Source: Bacteroidia bacterium
GTDB taxonomy: Bacteria; Bacteroidota; Bacteroidia; Flavobacteriales_D; JAUILH01
Direction: 5' to 3'
Length of the DNA stretch: 60,291 bases
NCBI GenBank assembly: GCA_030433115.1
Contig: JAUILH010000008.1
Coordinates: 1 to 60,291, forward strand
In this document: positions 15,415-23,372 of the stretch, piece by piece
Numbering within the stretch: the stretch's first letter is position 1
Layout: the number at the start of each line of letters is the position of its first letter
Translations under genes and position numbers: made by a program
Notes under the pieces: model-generated
The model's input: the letters and a program-made list of their open reading frames with translations, nothing else
Told to the model about the DNA's origin: nothing
Databases searched by the model: none

Positions 15415-16955
15415 TCAGGTTTTTGTGCACCATATCATTCGTTGGGCTACTCATGGGCTGTGCCACTATTAAAGCGCCTTCAGGTGGAAAAAAAGACGCT
15501 GCAGCTCCAAAAGTTGAAGCCGTTTCGGTTCAAAATGGAACAACCAATTTTTCCGGTCAGCAAATGAGTTTCACTTTTGATGAATACATCAGTTTAAACA
15601 AACCTCAACAAAACATCCTCATCTCCCCTCCCCTCAATAAAACCCCAAATTACTTGATTAAAGGGAAAACGCTCACGGTTAAATGGGAAGATACACTGAA
15701 AGAAAATACCACCTACAATTTTTACTTTGCCAACGCCATCAAAGACCTTAATGAAGGGAATGACACATCATTCTCTTGGGTGCTCTCAACAGGACAATAT
15801 ATAGATTCACTTTCCTTAAATGCCAGAGCGCTCCATGCAGAAACAGGTGAGCCTCTGGCCAACATTTGGCTACTTGGGTATCTGGATGATGACATTGAGA
15901 ATGTGGTAAAAAAACAACCTGACTTTATCACACAAACAAAGGAATCTGGTGTTGGTACTTTTCAATTTTTGCCAGATAGGAATTTGAGAGTTTTCGCTCT
16001 GCAAGACAATAATGGCAACCTGCGTTATGATCCTGGCAGTGATCAAGTAGGATTTATAGATGAGTCTGTTGAAATTACCTCAGCTGAAGACCTGTCAATT
16101 CCGGTGTTTGGTGAAGAAGACACCATTGTTCGCATTCTTGAAAAAAAATACATTCATCCAGGTCTGATCCGTTTTGTGTTTAATCAAGACATTGATGTAG
16201 GTGCATTTTGGGGTGAACTGGAATCTCCGGGCATTCTAAATGACACGGCAGAATTAATTTTGTTAGACACAAGTGTGGTTAAAGGAAACTATAGCACCAG
16301 TTATTTTTTAGATGGTGAAGAGCAAACCGCCACTTTTTATATCAATGACAATCTCAAACCTGACACTTTTAAACCAACTTTGAAATATGGCAGTACCATG
16401 GACAGTGATGTGGATATTACCATCAGTTGTTCAAGACCAATCGATTTTGTTGACACCAGCCTCATTAAACTGATTCAGGACAGCACTGACATACCTTATA
16501 AACATACTGTAGACCCTAAAAACCCCAAGGAAGTGAGCCTCTCCGCTACTTTAAATCCGGGTAGCGTATACACACTTGTAATGGACGAAAAAGCGATTAA
16601 ATGTTTTTTTAAACTAAGCTCGGATTCTGCTGAATATGTCATCCGGACCCGTGCCTTAGATTATTACGGGATACTCAAGATTTCCGGAAACTTTGACGGA
16701 CGTATCGTTCAATTACTTAAAGATGGTAAGGTAGTGAGGGAAGTCTCCCAAGCTGAAGCTTCCTTCACTTTAGACAAACTAGTCCCTGGCAAATACCGTT
16801 TAAGAATGATTGAAGATTTAGATAACAATGGCAAATGGTCATCAGGTAAGCTCAAACAAGAACGTCAGCCAGAAAAAGTCTACTACTACCCTGAAATTAT
16901 TGACTTGCGGTCGGGCTGGGATCAAGATATTCTCTGGGATTTTAAATCAGAGTGA
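15411..16955 (+). CDS. Ig-like (Big_5) domain lipoprotein
   Basis: This 514-residue lipoprotein has signal LLMGC, with the lipid Cys followed by ATIKAPSGGKKD. Residues about 30-130 form the Big_5 Ig-like domain (VQNGTTNFSGQQMSFTFDEY, TLTVKWEDTLKENTTYNFYF). Later there are YLDDDIEN and NNGNLRYDPGSDQ, typical of a group of Bacteroidota envelope lipoproteins. The only start giving the signal peptide is TTG at 15411, which overlaps the previous stop as TTGA, so expression is probably coupled to the reductase. It is likely outer-membrane-bound. Function unknown. It overlaps the convergent omega-amidase gene by 14 bp. Confidence 0.8.
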   Translation: MIRFLCTISFVGLLMGCATIKAPSGGKKDAAAPKVEAVSVQNGTTNFSGQQMSFTFDEYISLNKPQQNILISPPLNKTPNYLIKGKTLTVKWEDTLKENTTYNFYFANAIKDLNEGNDTSFSWVLSTGQYIDSLSLNARALHAETGEPLANIWLLGYLDDDIENVVKKQPDFITQTKESGVGTFQFLPDRNLRVFALQDNNGNLRYDPGSDQVGFIDESVEITSAEDLSIPVFGEEDTIVRILEKKYIHPGLIRFVFNQDIDVGAFWGELESPGILNDTAELILLDTSVVKGNYSTSYFLDGEEQTATFYINDNLKPDTFKPTLKYGSTMDSDVDITISCSRPIDFVDTSLIKLIQDSTDIPYKHTVDPKNPKEVSLSATLNPGSVYTLVMDEKAIKCFFKLSSDSAEYVIRTRALDYYGILKISGNFDGRIVQLLKDGKVVREVSQAEASFTLDKLVPGKYRLRMIEDLDNNGKWSSGKLKQERQPEKVYYYPEIIDLRSGWDQDILWDFKSE

Positions 16956-17715
16956 ATTGATCTGCGTCATTAGCAACCGGAAATTTCTTCCGAAAATCTT
17001 CAAGATCAGACCTGATCAAAACAAGCTGAATGACTTGTTCTTTGTAATCTTCCGTTTCAGCCATTAGCTGTCCCTTAGAATCAAAGGCCAAACTTCTTCC
17101 ATTGTACTGAATACCATTGCCGTCTATTCCTACCCTATTCACACCAAGCACATAACACTGATTTTCTATGGCTCTGGCGCACAGCAATGCTTCCCAGGCA
17201 CTCACTCTTGCTTCAGGCCAATTGGCCACATAAATATATAAATCGTTACTGCCGTCATTTCGACTCCAGACCGGAAACCTTAGGTCGTAACAAATAAATA
17301 TATTGATGTTCCATCCCTTGTAACTAATAACTGTCTTCTCTTTACCGGCTGTAAATGATTTATGTTCGCCAGCCATGCTGAATAAATGGCGTTTGTCATA
17401 GGCAAAATACTGTCCGGTTTCCGTCACAAAATAAGCCCTGTTGTAGTAGTTGCCATTGTCTTCTATGGTAATGCTCCCAACTAGGGCGCAATTCTTCTCT
17501 CTCGCCATCTTTTGCATCCATGCCAATGTAGCACTGGTTTCATGCCTTTCCGCAATACCCGCAGGACTCATAGAAAATCCAGTAGAAAACATTTCCGGCA
17601 GCACCATGACGTCTGCTTCTACTCCAGACACCAAAGTTTCTAATTGGCGTCTGTTGGCTTCAGGGTTTTCCCAAACAATGTCCAGTTGGACCAGTGCGAC
17701 TTTTAAATCTTGCAT
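16942..17715 (-). CDS. Omega-amidase, nitrilase superfamily (YafV/Nit2-like)
   Basis: This 257-residue C-N hydrolase carries the catalytic triad Glu41 (VLPEMF), Lys108 (YDKRHLF) and Cys142 (FICYDLRFP). The family hydrolyses alpha-ketoglutaramate or 2-oxosuccinamate to the keto acid and ammonia. It lies directly downstream of, and overlaps by 13 bp, a methionine/glutamine-type aminotransferase. That pairing is known for the glutamine transaminase/omega-amidase route, in which transamination of a keto acid such as 4-methylthio-2-oxobutyrate is pulled forward by removing ketoglutaramate. This supports a role in methionine salvage or keto-acid repair. Cytoplasmic. The exact substrate was not tested. 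Confidence 0.9.
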   Translation of the reverse strand: MQDLKVALVQLDIVWENPEANRRQLETLVSGVEADVMVLPEMFSTGFSMSPAGIAERHETSATLAWMQKMAREKNCALVGSITIEDNGNYYNRAYFVTETGQYFAYDKRHLFSMAGEHKSFTAGKEKTVISYKGWNINIFICYDLRFPVWSRNDGSNDLYIYVANWPEARVSAWEALLCARAIENQCYVLGVNRVGIDGNGIQYNGRSLAFDSKGQLMAETEDYKEQVIQLVLIRSDLEDFRKKFPVANDADQFTLI

Positions 17716-18836
17716 AATATTTCAGCTGCTTTTAATAAAGTATCATCATTTTTAGCGAAACAAAACCTCAACACCTTGTGGTCACTTCCATCTTCATAAA
17801 ACACAGAGATTGGAATAGAGGCTACTTTGTGTTCTTTAGTCAACTCCACGGCATAGTCCGTATCCTTCTTAGGGGAAATACCCTCGTAACTCAACAATTG
17901 AAAGTAAGTGCCAGAACAAGGGAGTGGCTTCAATTGGCTGGTGGAAATGGCGTTTAAAAATAGATCTCGTTTCTTCTCAAAGAAAGCTGGCAGCTCAACA
18001 TAACTTTCCGTTTCAATGTAATCTGCCAATGCCATTTGCGCAGGTGTATTGCAGGAAAAGACCAAATACTGGTGAATTTTTCTGAATTCTTGTGTCAAAT
18101 GTTCCGGAGCCACACAATACCCCAATTTCCAACCAGTGGCATGAAACGTCTTTCCAAAGGAGAATGTGACAAACGACCGTTTAAACAATTCCGGGTATTC
18201 GATCACTGACTTGTGCCGGAGACCATCAAAATAAATGTGCTCGTACACCTCATCAGAAATCAAATAGCAGTCAAATTGTATGCATAACTCTTCCAGAGCC
18301 CTCAATTCTTCAGCACTGATTATGGCACCTGTTGGGTTGTGTGGAGAGTTAATAATGATCAACTTAGTTCTTTCCGACAGATTTTCCTTCAAGGCATCCA
18401 GGGGAATTGCAAAATCGGGAAATTTGAGATTGAGATGTATCGGAACCCCACCATTCAAACGCACGGCCGGATCGTAGCAATCGTAAGACGGATCAAACAT
18501 AATCACTTCATCACCTGGGTTCACAACCGTAGCTATGGCGGTGTAAATGGCCTGCGTGGCGCCGGCAGTGATCGTTATATTGGTGTCCGGATCAATTTTT
18601 TTTTGAAAAACTTTTTCAATTTTCTTAGAGAGGGCATTCCTGAGCTCCGAGACGCCGGGCATTGGCGCATATTGGTTGTAGCCGTTCTTCAGATAATGCT
18701 CGTACAATTTCAACAATCTTGGATCACAATCGAACTCCGGAAAGCCCTGCGACAGGTTGATTGCGTCATATTCTTTTGCCAATGAGGACATTACCGAAAA
18801 GATGGTAATACCTGTATCAGGTAGTTTACTTTTCAT
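17703..18836 (-). CDS. PLP-dependent aminotransferase, methionine/glutamine type (YbdL-like)
   Basis: This fold-type I, class I/II aminotransferase has 377 residues. The Schiff-base lysine is Lys229 in SFGKTFHATGWKLGY; Asn167 (NSPHNPTG) and Asp195/Tyr198 (SDEVYEH) bind the cofactor. The HATGWK form and INLSQGFPEFDCDP at the N-terminus match methionine aminotransferases and kynurenine/glutamine transaminase K relatives. Its last 13 bp overlap the start of the omega-amidase gene, so the two are an operon acting in sequence on glutamine-derived amide keto acids. Cytoplasmic. The preferred amino donor is inferred from the neighbour. Confidence 0.92.
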   Translation of the reverse strand: MKSKLPDTGITIFSVMSSLAKEYDAINLSQGFPEFDCDPRLLKLYEHYLKNGYNQYAPMPGVSELRNALSKKIEKVFQKKIDPDTNITITAGATQAIYTAIATVVNPGDEVIMFDPSYDCYDPAVRLNGGVPIHLNLKFPDFAIPLDALKENLSERTKLIIINSPHNPTGAIISAEELRALEELCIQFDCYLISDEVYEHIYFDGLRHKSVIEYPELFKRSFVTFSFGKTFHATGWKLGYCVAPEHLTQEFRKIHQYLVFSCNTPAQMALADYIETESYVELPAFFEKKRDLFLNAISTSQLKPLPCSGTYFQLLSYEGISPKKDTDYAVELTKEHKVASIPISVFYEDGSDHKVLRFCFAKNDDTLLKAAEILCKI

Positions 18837-19009: not shown

Positions 19010-19303
19010 ATGAAAAAGGTATTATTTTCTGTAGCATTTGTTGCTGCATTCGGATTGGTTTCTTGTGGTGGTCCTTCTATGTGTGACTGTGTTGAAGGTA
19101 GAAAAGAAATGAGAGAGAAGATCAAAGAAGCTGACGGAGACAAAGACAAGATCAAAGAGATCGAGGAAGAGTACAAAGACATGAAAGAAGAGTGTGAAGA
19201 AATGGGGAAAGAGAGAAAGAAAGAGTGGGAAGATGCTGACGATGACAAGAAGAAAGAGTTAGAGAAAGAGTGGGAAGAAGAAGCAGAAAGCTGTGAAAAG
19301 TAA
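19010..19303 (+). CDS. Small CxC lipoprotein 1, acidic/helical, 97 aa
   Basis: The lipoprotein signal is FGLVSC with lipid Cys19. Cys25-Asp-Cys27 (PSMCDCVEG) follows, then a highly charged Lys/Glu helical body with Cys62 (KEECEEM) and Cys95 (ESCEK) near the end. Spacing is C-x-C, 34 residues, C, 32 residues, C. It aligns end to end with the next gene. The lipid would place it on a membrane facing the periplasm, and the four remaining cysteines could make two disulfides across a helical hairpin. It is the first of seven neighbouring genes with the same plan and is closed by its own terminator. I do not recognise a named family. Confidence 0.85.
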   Translation: MKKVLFSVAFVAAFGLVSCGGPSMCDCVEGRKEMREKIKEADGDKDKIKEIEEEYKDMKEECEEMGKERKKEWEDADDDKKKELEKEWEEEAESCEK

Positions 19304-19326
19304 TCTACTCCTCTATTAAATATTTA

Positions 19327-19356
19327 AACCCTGACCGTCTGGTCAGGGTTTTTTTG
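19327..19356 (+). terminator. Terminator after lipoprotein 1
   Basis: A perfect 10-bp stem (AACCCTGACC / GGTCAGGGTT), a 4-nt loop and a T run lie 24 bp after the stop. This separates the first, probably highly expressed, gene from the rest of the array. Confidence 0.9.
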
Positions 19357-19409
19357 TGCCCATATTTAGCTTTGACCTAAGCATTTTACCTACTTTTACT
19401 AAAAACTAG

Positions 19410-19733
19410 ATGATGAGAAAAACAATTTACCTTATTGGTGCCCTGGCTCTAATGGGATGCAGTTCCGAAGACTCTAAGGAGGATGAGAAAAAAGACAATG
19501 GCCCTAGTGTGTGCGACTGTGTGAACGGTGGAAAAGAAATGCGTGATAAAATTACTGATGCCGGTGATGATGACGACAAAATAAAAGAAGTTGAAGAGCA
19601 GTATAAGGACCTTAAAGAGGCTTGCGAGAAAATATCAAAACAACGCAATGAAGAATATAAGGACGCTGACGACGATAAAAAGAAAGCGCTAGAAGCAAAG
19701 TGGTCTGAGGAAATGGAAAACTGCGATAAATAA
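19410..19733 (+). CDS. Small CxC lipoprotein 2, 107 aa
   Basis: The lipoprotein signal ends LALMGC (Cys17). A short acidic linker leads to Cys35-Asp-Cys37 (PSVCDCVNG), then a charged helical body with Cys72 (KEACEK) and Cys105 (ENCDK). The C-x-C, 34, C, 32, C spacing is identical to lipoprotein 1, and long stretches match (DADDDKKK, DDKIKEVEEQYKDLKE), so the two are recent paralogues; only the linker after the lipid Cys differs. ATGs at 19410 and 19413 are both possible starts. Function unknown. Confidence 0.83.
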   Translation: MMRKTIYLIGALALMGCSSEDSKEDEKKDNGPSVCDCVNGGKEMRDKITDAGDDDDKIKEVEEQYKDLKEACEKISKQRNEEYKDADDDKKKALEAKWSEEMENCDK

Positions 19734-19763
19734 AAATAAGCACATCAGTAACAGTCATACGCT

Positions 19764-19970
19764 ATGAAAAAAACACATCTTGTTATATCCACTGTTGCCT
19801 TCTCATTTCTGATGGCATCATGCAGCCAGCCGGATTTTTGTGAATGCATAGACAATGACATGAGAGGCGCACAGAAAGATGAGGGGCTATCTGAAAAATG
19901 TGAAGATGCTTATTCTGACCATAGTAAAGAGGAAATCAAGGAGTTAGTGGAGAGCTGCAATCCAGAATAA
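19764..19970 (+). CDS. Small CxC lipoprotein 3, 68 aa
   Basis: This is the shortest member. The signal ends SFLMASC, followed by Cys-Glu-Cys (PDFCECIDN), a middle Cys (SEKCEDAY) and a last Cys two residues short of the end region (VESCNPE). The order of cysteines matches the other members, but the helical segments are shortened. It starts 30 bp after the stop of member 2 and is probably cotranscribed with it. No named family recognised. Confidence 0.78.
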   Translation: MKKTHLVISTVAFSFLMASCSQPDFCECIDNDMRGAQKDEGLSEKCEDAYSDHSKEEIKELVESCNPE

Positions 19971-20093
19971 GACAAAAATCTACCATCCGTCCTCAAATTC
20001 CCGCCATCCGTATCTTGAATTCGAAAAAACTATAATATTTCCACGCGGATGGTCTATATTCGCGACACTTTTAAACGTTTAAATTAATTAGTG

Positions 20094-20372
20094 ATGAAAA
20101 AAGTATTATTATCTGCTGCAGTATTAGCAGTATTAGGATTAAGTTCTTGTGGAACTGTTGATCCGGATGAAGTTGCCGCAGATTTGTGCGCATGTACAGA
20201 AAAAGAAGGTGACGACAAGAAAACTTGTCTTGACGAATTTGTAGAAGAATACAAAGACGCTAAGATCAAGAAAGATGATGAAGAGGAAATGATGACAAAA
20301 ATCATGGAGTGTGCCGGTGGAGACATGGAAGCGCTTGATGCTTTAGCTAAAATGGCTAAAGAAGCTGAATAA
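20094..20372 (+). CDS. Small CxC lipoprotein 4, 92 aa
   Basis: The signal ends LGLSSC, then VDPDEVAADLCACTEKEG with the C-x-C pair, a middle Cys (KKTCLDEF) and a later Cys (IMECAGG), then an Ala/Glu-rich tail. I use the ATG at 20094; a GTG directly before it is also in frame. The N-terminus (MKKVLLSAAVLAVLGLSSCG) resembles member 1 closely, which suggests duplication. A 123-bp gap with short CCATCCG/CGGATGG repeats precedes it, and a strong terminator follows, so it may form its own transcription unit. Confidence 0.82.
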   Translation: MKKVLLSAAVLAVLGLSSCGTVDPDEVAADLCACTEKEGDDKKTCLDEFVEEYKDAKIKKDDEEEMMTKIMECAGGDMEALDALAKMAKEAE

Positions 20373-20392
20373 GCCTCATCAAAACTTTTTAA

Positions 20393-20427
20393 AAACCTGA
20401 CCTCAATCCTGAAGTCAGGTTTTTTTG
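20393..20427 (+). terminator. Terminator after lipoprotein 4
   Basis: A perfect 9-bp stem (AAACCTGAC / GTCAGGTTT) with a 12-nt loop and a T run lies 20 bp after the stop. It divides the array into sub-units. Confidence 0.88.
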
Positions 20428-20475
20428 TGCCCACCCTCAAGCGTATCTTTGCGTATCTTGCATAAAAATTTTCGC

Positions 20476-20793
20476 ATGTCAATTAAATACCTCATCGCCA
20501 GTTTGGGAACCGCATTTATTTTGGTGTCATGCACTTCAGAATCGGCTAAAGACATTAAAACCAGTGACATCAAAGATGTATGTGACTGCGTTAATTCGCT
20601 TCAAATGGTGGTAGACGAATTAAGCATCCTAAAGGAGGAAGATCCTACCAGTGAAAACAAAACCCAAATGGCAGTTTTAAAAAGTAAACTAAAGGAAATT
20701 CGGAACCATTGTTATACGCAATTCAAGGTCGACAAAATGACCGAATGTGACGGATTCAAACAACTAGAAAAAGACATTGATGCACTCCGTTAA
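20476..20793 (+). CDS. Small CxC lipoprotein 5, 105 aa
   Basis: The start at 20476 (MSIKYLIASLG) gives a signal ending FILVSC. An upstream in-frame ATG at 20425 lies inside the terminator of the previous gene and is rejected. The mature protein has IKDVCDCVNSLQ (C-x-C), a middle Cys (RNHCYTQF) and a third Cys (MTECDGF), all in a predicted helical, Lys/Glu-rich body. Its last 14 bp overlap the start of member 6, so the two are translationally coupled. Function unknown. Confidence 0.82.
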   Translation: MSIKYLIASLGTAFILVSCTSESAKDIKTSDIKDVCDCVNSLQMVVDELSILKEEDPTSENKTQMAVLKSKLKEIRNHCYTQFKVDKMTECDGFKQLEKDIDALR

Positions 20794-21163
20794 ATTCATT
20801 TTTATTGTACTGGCATTGCTGGGCTTACAGGCTTGTGGCGACAACGACATGGAAAATCAGGCAGAAGAACTCTCTTCAGATTTTTGCAATTGCCTGGAGC
20901 AATCCAAAATAGACAACCCATCGGCTTACAAAGCTGTTGTTATCGGTACAAACAAGACCTTGAGATCCCACATGGATTCGTGTAGCAACTTGCTCAAAGA
21001 TGATCTCCTAAAAGAGATAGAATCGTATGAAGACAAAGAAGACCAAACCGAATTTCTAAAATTGTTTTTGAAGGCACTCATCGACTCCGATTGTGGTGTT
21101 CATGCCTCTGAAGCCATTCCTTTTGACGCATTAAACTTATGGTATGAATCGCAAAATAAATAG
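20780..21163 (+). CDS. Small CxC lipoprotein 6, 127 aa
   Basis: The signal ends LGLQAC. SSDFCNCLEQSK carries the C-x-C pair, then Cys in MDSCSNLL and Cys in DSDCGVHA, about 20 residues from the end. It is less charged than members 1 and 2 and contains a hydrophobic helix (FLKLFLKALI). I choose the ATG at 20780 over a TTG three bases earlier. It overlaps member 5 by 14 bp and member 7 by 20 bp, a tight three-gene block. Members 6 and 7 share the LLKA(M/L)-(I/L)D-(S/T)-(D/N)-C pattern and look like sisters. Confidence 0.82.
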   Translation: MHSVKFIFIVLALLGLQACGDNDMENQAEELSSDFCNCLEQSKIDNPSAYKAVVIGTNKTLRSHMDSCSNLLKDDLLKEIESYEDKEDQTEFLKLFLKALIDSDCGVHASEAIPFDALNLWYESQNK

Positions 21164-21509
21164 GCTGGTCATTGGAATCACAGCTCTCCTGCTCGTCGTG
21201 AGTTTGGGTAGTTGTAGAGATGAAGACTCACCAGAGTCTATTGCCAACGATATGTGTTCCTGTATCCTGGATGCTGGCTTTTCTGCCGTAAAGTCTCAAG
21301 GTACTGATGGAGATGTGCTGCCACAATGTGCTCAAGACATTGCCGATAGAATTAAGGCGCTATTTGACAGCATGAGTAAAGAAGAAAAAGCAGAATTTAC
21401 CCGAGAACTTCTCAAAGCCATGCTAGACACCAATTGCGTTGATTTTATGATCAAACAAATGGGCCACGAGCGCGTCATGAGTTACATTTTTACTCTGCTC
21501 GGGAAGTAG
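21144..21509 (+). CDS. Small CxC lipoprotein 7, 121 aa
   Basis: The signal ends VSLGSC, followed by ANDMCSCILDAGF (C-x-C), Cys in LPQCAQDI and Cys in DTNCVDFM. It shares the segment around the last Cys with member 6 (ELLKAMLDTNC versus LFLKALIDSDC). The gene overlaps member 6 by 20 bp and overlaps the tail of the convergent DinB-like gene by 20 bp. It is the last member of the array. No known family assigned; probably periplasm-facing, with disulfides inferred. Confidence 0.82.
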   Translation: MNRKINRLVIGITALLLVVSLGSCRDEDSPESIANDMCSCILDAGFSAVKSQGTDGDVLPQCAQDIADRIKALFDSMSKEEKAEFTRELLKAMLDTNCVDFMIKQMGHERVMSYIFTLLGK

Positions 21510-22778: not shown

Positions 22779-23372
22779 ATGAAGTTAATCCTCCTTTTAC
22801 TTTGTCCAATACTGGCCCTTACATCCCATGCTCAAACACCTGAGTATTTTAATCCTGACGCCCTCCCATCACTGGGTAACAGGAAATTATTGGAGGTTAA
22901 AGTCAAAAAAACCGGACCGTATTTTGGATATGCCAGAGGTAAAGTTGATGCCTTCGAATTGGGTGTGGAAAGACAATACAAAAAACTTAAAATCATCAGA
23001 CCCATCACGCATGGCGTTCATTTAGGGTTCGACTACAATTTTAAAAACCACGTTTTGGGTTACCAAATGGGCTACTGGGCCAAAGAGGGCAGGTTAAATC
23101 TCACCTTTGGTGGCGATCTGGTGTTAAGAACAAATTTTGATCAAACGCGCTTTGGAGGAGGCCCCTGTATTGGCTATCGTTTGTTGGGTTTTCACCTTCA
23201 AACTGGTTACCATTTGTTAAGTAAGTCTGAGACTTTTACCAATACCAACGATTTTTTTATCCGTTTGAGGTTCACCCTGGTAAACGAACGGGAATGGGAT
23301 GTCGATAGCGATTTCTCTCTCAAAGGCATGTTCAAAAGAGACAACAAAAAGAAAAAGAAGAAGAAAAAATAG
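22779..23372 (+). CDS. Outer-membrane-type hypothetical protein, 197 aa
   Basis: A signal peptide ending SHAQ is followed by alternating beta strands with Gly/aromatic pairs (YFGYARGKVDAFELG, HLGFDYNFKNHVLGYQMGYW, FGGGPCIGYRLLGFHLQTGYH). This is consistent with a small beta-barrel. It is unusual in ending with a run of eight lysines after KRDNK, which would be a basic tail. I do not recognise a family; function unknown. Confidence 0.72.
   Translation: MKLILLLLCPILALTSHAQTPEYFNPDALPSLGNRKLLEVKVKKTGPYFGYARGKVDAFELGVERQYKKLKIIRPITHGVHLGFDYNFKNHVLGYQMGYWAKEGRLNLTFGGDLVLRTNFDQTRFGGGPCIGYRLLGFHLQTGYHLLSKSETFTNTNDFFIRLRFTLVNEREWDVDSDFSLKGMFKRDNKKKKKKKK

Follow-up and report, generated by a model that had tools for sequence, protein, structure and literature searches.

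Small helical proteins in which two disulfides hold the helices together are known from mitochondria as the CHCH and small Tim proteins. The LprI/DUF1311 lysozyme inhibitor-like proteins are small, exported and helical and also bear disulfides. The Lpp/OprI alanine-zipper proteins are short, highly charged, helical lipoproteins, properties that they share with the proteins described here. In Flavobacterium johnsoniae, periplasmic disulfides are documented, and C-x-C motifs in the C-terminal tails of SprF and PorG exchange disulfides with the lipoprotein GldK (PMC12635249). Surface-exposed Bacteroidota lipoproteins (LES) carry a polar residue and then acidic residues right after the lipidated cysteine (PMC5080379).

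The window, which is the whole 60,291-nucleotide stretch of DNA that was analysed, contains an array of seven plus-strand genes (members 1–7) encoding lipoproteins of 68–127 residues (Table 1). Each member has a signal peptide with a lipobox cysteine, followed by a hydrophobic residue and a C-x-C pair, a middle cysteine and a late cysteine; the open reading frames and cysteine counts confirm this plan, which the initial annotation had read from the sequence. Besides the lipobox cysteine, exactly four cysteines are found in all seven members. The array is split by two strong intrinsic terminators, and its last three genes overlap (5 and 6 by 14 bp, 6 and 7 by 20 bp), both as first described. 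The Bacteroidota promoter motif TAnnTTTG precedes members 2 and 5, but it is not enriched across the window (49 found versus 59 expected) and thus carries no weight there. Elsewhere in the window (22779–23372), a 197-residue open reading frame without a Pfam match ends in a poly-lysine tail.

Table 1. Positions and properties of the array, its flanking gene pair and a five-domain relative (window coordinates unless a locus is named; gaps are those between successive cysteines from the C-x-C pair onward).
Feature	Position	Strand	Description	C-x-C with preceding residue	Cys gaps
Carbon-nitrogen hydrolase (omega-amidase type)	16942–17715	−	Paired with the aminotransferase		
Class I aminotransferase	17703–18836	−	Divergent; anchor of the conserved locus		
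Member 1	19010–19303	+	97-aa lipoprotein, CDC-34-C-32-C; mature chain with 65% charged residues; own terminator	MCDC	1,34,32
Intrinsic terminator, members 1/2 interval	19326–19351	+	11-bp stem; folding z −6.7		
Member 2	19413–19733 (alternative start: ATG at 19410)	+	106-aa lipoprotein; acidic linker before CDC-34-C-32-C	VCDC	1,34,32
Member 3	19764–19970	+	68-aa minimal member, CEC-17-C-18-C	FCEC	1,17,18
Member 4	20094–20372	+	92-aa lipoprotein, CAC-10-C-27-C	LCAC	1,10,27
Intrinsic terminator, members 4/5 interval	20391–20424	+	11-bp outer stem, U-run; folding z −5.0		
Member 5	20476–20793	+	105-aa lipoprotein, CDC-40-C-11-C	VCDC	1,40,11
Member 6	20780–21163	+	127-aa lipoprotein, CNC-29-C-36-C; overlaps member 5	FCNC	1,29,36
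Member 7	21144–21509	+	121-aa lipoprotein, CSC-21-C-35-C; overlaps member 6	MCSC	1,21,35
Five tandem C-x-C/C/C domains	L028:748-1656, contig C47	−	302 aa; secreted, apparently non-lipidated		

The C-x-C/C/C lipoprotein domains form a real, unnamed family of predicted fold. The suspicion that no named family has this plan held in searches of Pfam, NCBIfam and the PDB by sequence and by fold, none of which gave a credible match. In Pfam and NCBIfam, none of the seven members exceeds a curated cut-off; among ten relatives, only a fused YceI domain does so, with nothing above cut-off for the C-x-C domain, and for 62 domains the best hit (E 0.0002) is to an unrelated family. A profile search of PDB sequences reaches E 0.43 at best, Foldseek searches of the PDB reach E 4.8 and 2.9 with the models of members 1 and 7, respectively, and BFVD contains no credible match.

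Judged by sequence comparison, the seven genes almost certainly belong to one domain family. A domain profile was trained on 83 members, all of them from other genomes, and the mature window sequences were scored against it together with 500 Cys-fixed shuffles of each. Linkage of the seven by profile, set beforehand as the check on the family, was obtained in part: the scores of members 1, 2, 3 and 6 are reached by none of their 500 shuffles, whereas those of members 4 and 7 are exceeded by four shuffles each and that of member 5, which is weak, by 19. These three members are linked instead via intermediate sequences and fusions. Member 4 closely matches a protein of genome G367 (E 1e-12; pairwise E-values are scaled to 10,000 sequences), member 5 matches proteins of genomes G049 and G002 (E ~1e-4), and a lipoprotein on contig C14 is matched by both member 6 (E 4e-7) and member 7 (E 2e-7). 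Within the array, the identical spacing noted for members 1 and 2 is accompanied by a mature-sequence match of E 2e-27, and the proposed sister pair 6 and 7 also match each other (E 0.003). The C14 lipoprotein consists of a member-6/7-type domain followed by a member-1-type domain; the G367 lipoprotein combines a member-6/7-type with a member-4-type domain and lies near a stand-alone member-4-type gene. The C14 fusion and the five-domain C47 protein were absent from the profile training set, and both halves of the former and repeat 5 of the latter beat 500 of 500 shuffles, with the other four repeats exceeded by 5–42 of 500. A domain-only profile search of this genome matches C47 and C14, with E between 1e-7 and 5e-6; a scan of its contigs that used just member 1 yielded no relative. 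That convergence or chance gave the same cysteines to seven small charged lipoproteins without common origin is very improbable. The weak pairwise matches of member 3 throughout and the position of member 5 near the shuffle range would fit such an origin, but the profile, intermediate-sequence and natural-fusion links oppose it, as do a locus and array order that are conserved in another family.

That conserved locus is seen in genome G020, where a second seven-gene array, of the kind the initial annotation had proposed to look for, lies beside and divergent from the same aminotransferase/omega-amidase pair. The third and fourth genes of the G020 array are matched by members 1 and 2 (E 6e-8 and 3e-10), its fifth gene is the best, weak match of member 3 (E 0.18), and a strong terminator after its third gene parallels the terminator after member 1. 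Codon use typical of strongly expressed genes is commoner in terminator-flanked members, with small counts throughout: the share of C-ending codons in member 1 is 12 of 16 versus a background of 0.37 (small counts), and the codon share in genes 3, 6 and 7 of the G020 array is 16 of 39 versus ~0.19 in two neighbouring genes (also small counts). Three family genes occupy the locus in G010 and G027, and a single conserved gene occupies it in about a dozen Crocinitomicaceae (f9; e.g. Fluviicola). The adjacency to the aminotransferase/omega-amidase pair recurs in family f1, in all three f11 genomes searched and in about a dozen of the Crocinitomicaceae genomes read; it was not seen in the inspected genomes of f2, f3, f4, f5, f7, f10 and f13. 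On the other side of the array the genes vary (glycine dehydrogenase, TatD-like, HemL-like and SDH, named by eye). Because the adjacency is patchy and the far-side genes differ, the position appears to be inherited rather than to reflect an operon link, and a functional link to the gene pair was rejected on these grounds.

Searches of this genome (93.7% complete) were read as containing about 20 genes and about 26 domains of the C-x-C/C/C type. The array is a mix of older subtypes, which other families and other parts of this genome also contain, and not a single tandem expansion. The proposal of an old tandem family therefore stands as to age, divergence and tandem amplification, and is refined as to one expansion within the array. 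A profile that included the signal peptide matched 89 of 150 genomes of the order (Flavobacteriales by record names) at E 0.01, the weakest of which may be other lipoproteins; of 198 genomes of the phylum, the domain-only profile at E 0.001 matched one besides this genome, in a search of limited sensitivity when domains are short and divergent. As currently defined, the family is thus centred on this order, and it is a lineage-expanded family in certain Flavobacteriales that grew via tandem duplication and domain fusion.

Several further loci were encountered. In G385, a protein shows a near-identical internal duplication. A YceI-domain lipoprotein of genome G026 (L041:1501-2316) carries a C-x-C/C/C domain at its N-terminus, and several f10 genomes contain matches with similar frame lengths. 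Triplets of family genes occur in two f3 genomes (L060:4523-5519 and L182:1569-2705), where genes named by eye as glycerophosphodiester phosphodiesterase-like and MsrA-like follow them. A tandem pair of small lipoproteins in genome G425 (L188:2919-3619) matches the profile and was set aside as another cysteine type (CKKDYTCEC...). On contig C189, a lipoprotein in which KCEEG/EGKC is repeated in tandem about twelve times (L011:922-1308, minus strand) is divergent from a C-x-C family lipoprotein. These repeats resemble copper-binding EGKC-repeat peptides; an MNIO enzyme was not found in this genome, and a metal RiPP link was rejected for that reason.

Across the family, the C-x-C pair is invariant, the middle and late cysteines are almost as invariant, and outside the cysteine pattern the sequences are extremely divergent (15% mean column identity). 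Exactly four cysteines beyond the lipobox are present in 73 of 77 non-redundant members, a parity that is partly built in because sequences, collected using profiles that contained window members, were kept only with at least four cysteines.

The AlphaFold2 model of member 1 (17 sequences; pLDDT 84, pTM only 0.54) contains three helices (residues 6–22, 27–57 and 60–78) with cysteines at positions 7, 9, 44 and 77. In this prediction, the single helical hairpin originally envisaged gives way to two stacked hairpins that share helix 2, and the helical character is retained. With the helices taken as antiparallel and a rise of 1.5 Å per residue, arithmetic places the four cysteines at one level, within about 6 Å along the axis. 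The member 7 model is weaker (pLDDT 73.6) and has two sequences behind it. Across the 77 non-redundant members, large hydrophobic residues (background 0.23) peak at −1 (0.82) and +3 (0.69) around the first cysteine, at −7 (0.42), −3 (0.58) and +3 (0.71) around the third, and at −7 (0.79) and −3 (0.60) around the fourth. By these peaks, the two cysteines of C-x-C border the hydrophobic stripe of helix 1 on either side, and the middle and late cysteines fall within the corresponding stripes of helix 2 and helix 3, respectively. The four cysteines likely cluster in a helical bundle. Their position on or beside the stripes makes two disulfides that pin the helices the best reading, and with the stripes arranged in this way helix 1 would be well placed to form one bond with each of its two neighbours.

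The domain would accordingly in its proposed form be a small amphipathic three-helix bundle of two stacked hairpins with a shared middle helix, in which one C-x-C cysteine would bond helix 2 and the other helix 3. Pinned by two disulfides, such a bundle could let loop and helix lengths drift. The N-terminal lipid, often together with an acidic linker, would tether the bundle to the membrane. Copies of the domain have arisen through tandem duplication and through fusion of domains, and units of the array carry terminators of their own.

Two disulfides, as first suggested, are the probable state of the cysteines rather than free thiols or bound metal, a reading that we infer from cysteine parity and helix-face position. 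The failure to detect oxidation enzymes is counted against it: VKOR and DsbA-fold (PF01323) proteins, the two families searched for, went undetected in this genome. VKOR is present in one of 60 relatives of the order, and PF01323 matches occur in about half of the relatives and may represent cytosolic DSBA-like proteins.

As to function, the members may be passive, partly abundant outer-envelope building blocks, that is, tethered, highly charged helical modules and not enzymes. We infer abundance, location and role alike, and a passive structural role is put at slightly less than an even chance. By eye, the residues after the lipidated cysteine are LES-like in members 2 (CSSED), 6 (CGDND) and 7 (CRDED) and un-LES-like in members 1 (CGGPS) and 3 (CSQPD). 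The explanation as a whole, which combines one family, a two-disulfide, three-helix, lipid-anchored module and a passive envelope component, is considered evenly balanced between right and wrong.

The envelope redox, metal or stress buffer suggested at the outset was not borne out, as no metal-ligand pattern beyond the four cysteines and no conserved redox or metal neighbours were seen, and neither VKOR nor a PF01323 protein was detected in this genome. Redox exchange through C-x-C, as with GldK in F. johnsoniae, is the main rival reading, although an unlikely one. By analogy with SprF/PorG–GldK, a strained C-x-C disulfide would exchange with thiols of other envelope proteins. Such exchange is established for C-x-C motifs in the same order (PMC12635249), the motif is invariant in the family, and the failure to find VKOR or a PF01323 protein in this genome also speaks for it. 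However, the nearly equal invariance of the middle and late cysteines and their location on hydrophobic helix faces fit structural bonds in the protein interior, C-x-C stands at the start of a folded helix instead of in a flexible tail, and the tandem repetition of the whole four-cysteine unit within one protein looks structural.

The failure to detect VKOR or a PF01323 protein would likewise fit a metal or thiol buffer, in which four unoxidised cysteines coordinate a soft metal (Cu(I), Zn or another) at the membrane, as would the probable clustering of the cysteines at one level of the modelled bundle, the acidic chains and the paralog that is divergent from the EGKC-repeat lipoprotein. This reading is quite unlikely: conserved His or Met ligands and CxxC are absent, no metal transport or sensor genes were recognised beside the loci read, no MNIO enzyme was found for the EGKC-repeat neighbour, and periplasmic disulfides do form in the same order (PMC12635249). 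Slightly less probable are small binding or inhibitor proteins for a partner, peptide or lysozyme-like target, which would display variable helix surfaces on a disulfide-fixed core and diversify like other exported cysteine-rich families. The extreme divergence outside the cysteine pattern, the repeated duplication and the single YceI fusion agree with such a role, but no LprI/DUF1311 or inhibitor family is among the matches listed, no matched target or toxin gene was recognised beside the loci read, and the single Crocinitomicaceae copies are conserved (63–88% identity among close relatives) and not hypervariable.

A broader proposal, speculative and on balance doubtful, builds on the disulfide-pinned module. 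An undescribed helical module of this type could be a general Flavobacteriales envelope building block, used as singles, as doubles and as a five-domain secreted chain, with arrays expanded at one ancestral locus; its production in lineages with almost no detected VKOR would suggest that these bacteria fold proteins oxidatively by a route not yet recognised. If so, about 20 hypothetical genes in this genome and many more in Flavobacteriales (e.g. Fluviicola) would become one definable domain open to modelling, naming and testing. Moreover, a large four-cysteine exported family in the absence of detectable VKOR would open disulfide formation in Bacteroidota to direct tests with small substrates that are easy to purify.

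The family is assigned to no known family because the defining features of known families that were tested are absent from its members. Unlike these members, the Lpp/OprI lipoproteins have no cysteine plan, and the match of member 2 to them is weak (15.2 bits versus a cut-off of 43). The LprI/DUF1311 proteins lack the C-x-C plan, and no Pfam match to them is listed for any member. The CHCH and small Tim proteins are soluble and non-lipidated and carry CX3C or CX9C pairs, whereas the members follow a C-x-C, C, C plan without paired CX3C or CX9C motifs; searches by sequence and by fold gave no match to these proteins. The SprF/PorG–GldK system of gliding and the T9SS in F. johnsoniae is alike in its envelope C-x-C cysteines, its order and its periplasmic disulfide chemistry (PMC12635249). 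There, the C-x-C motif belongs to a C-terminal tail and bonds one protein to another, whereas here it opens a helix in a four-cysteine domain.
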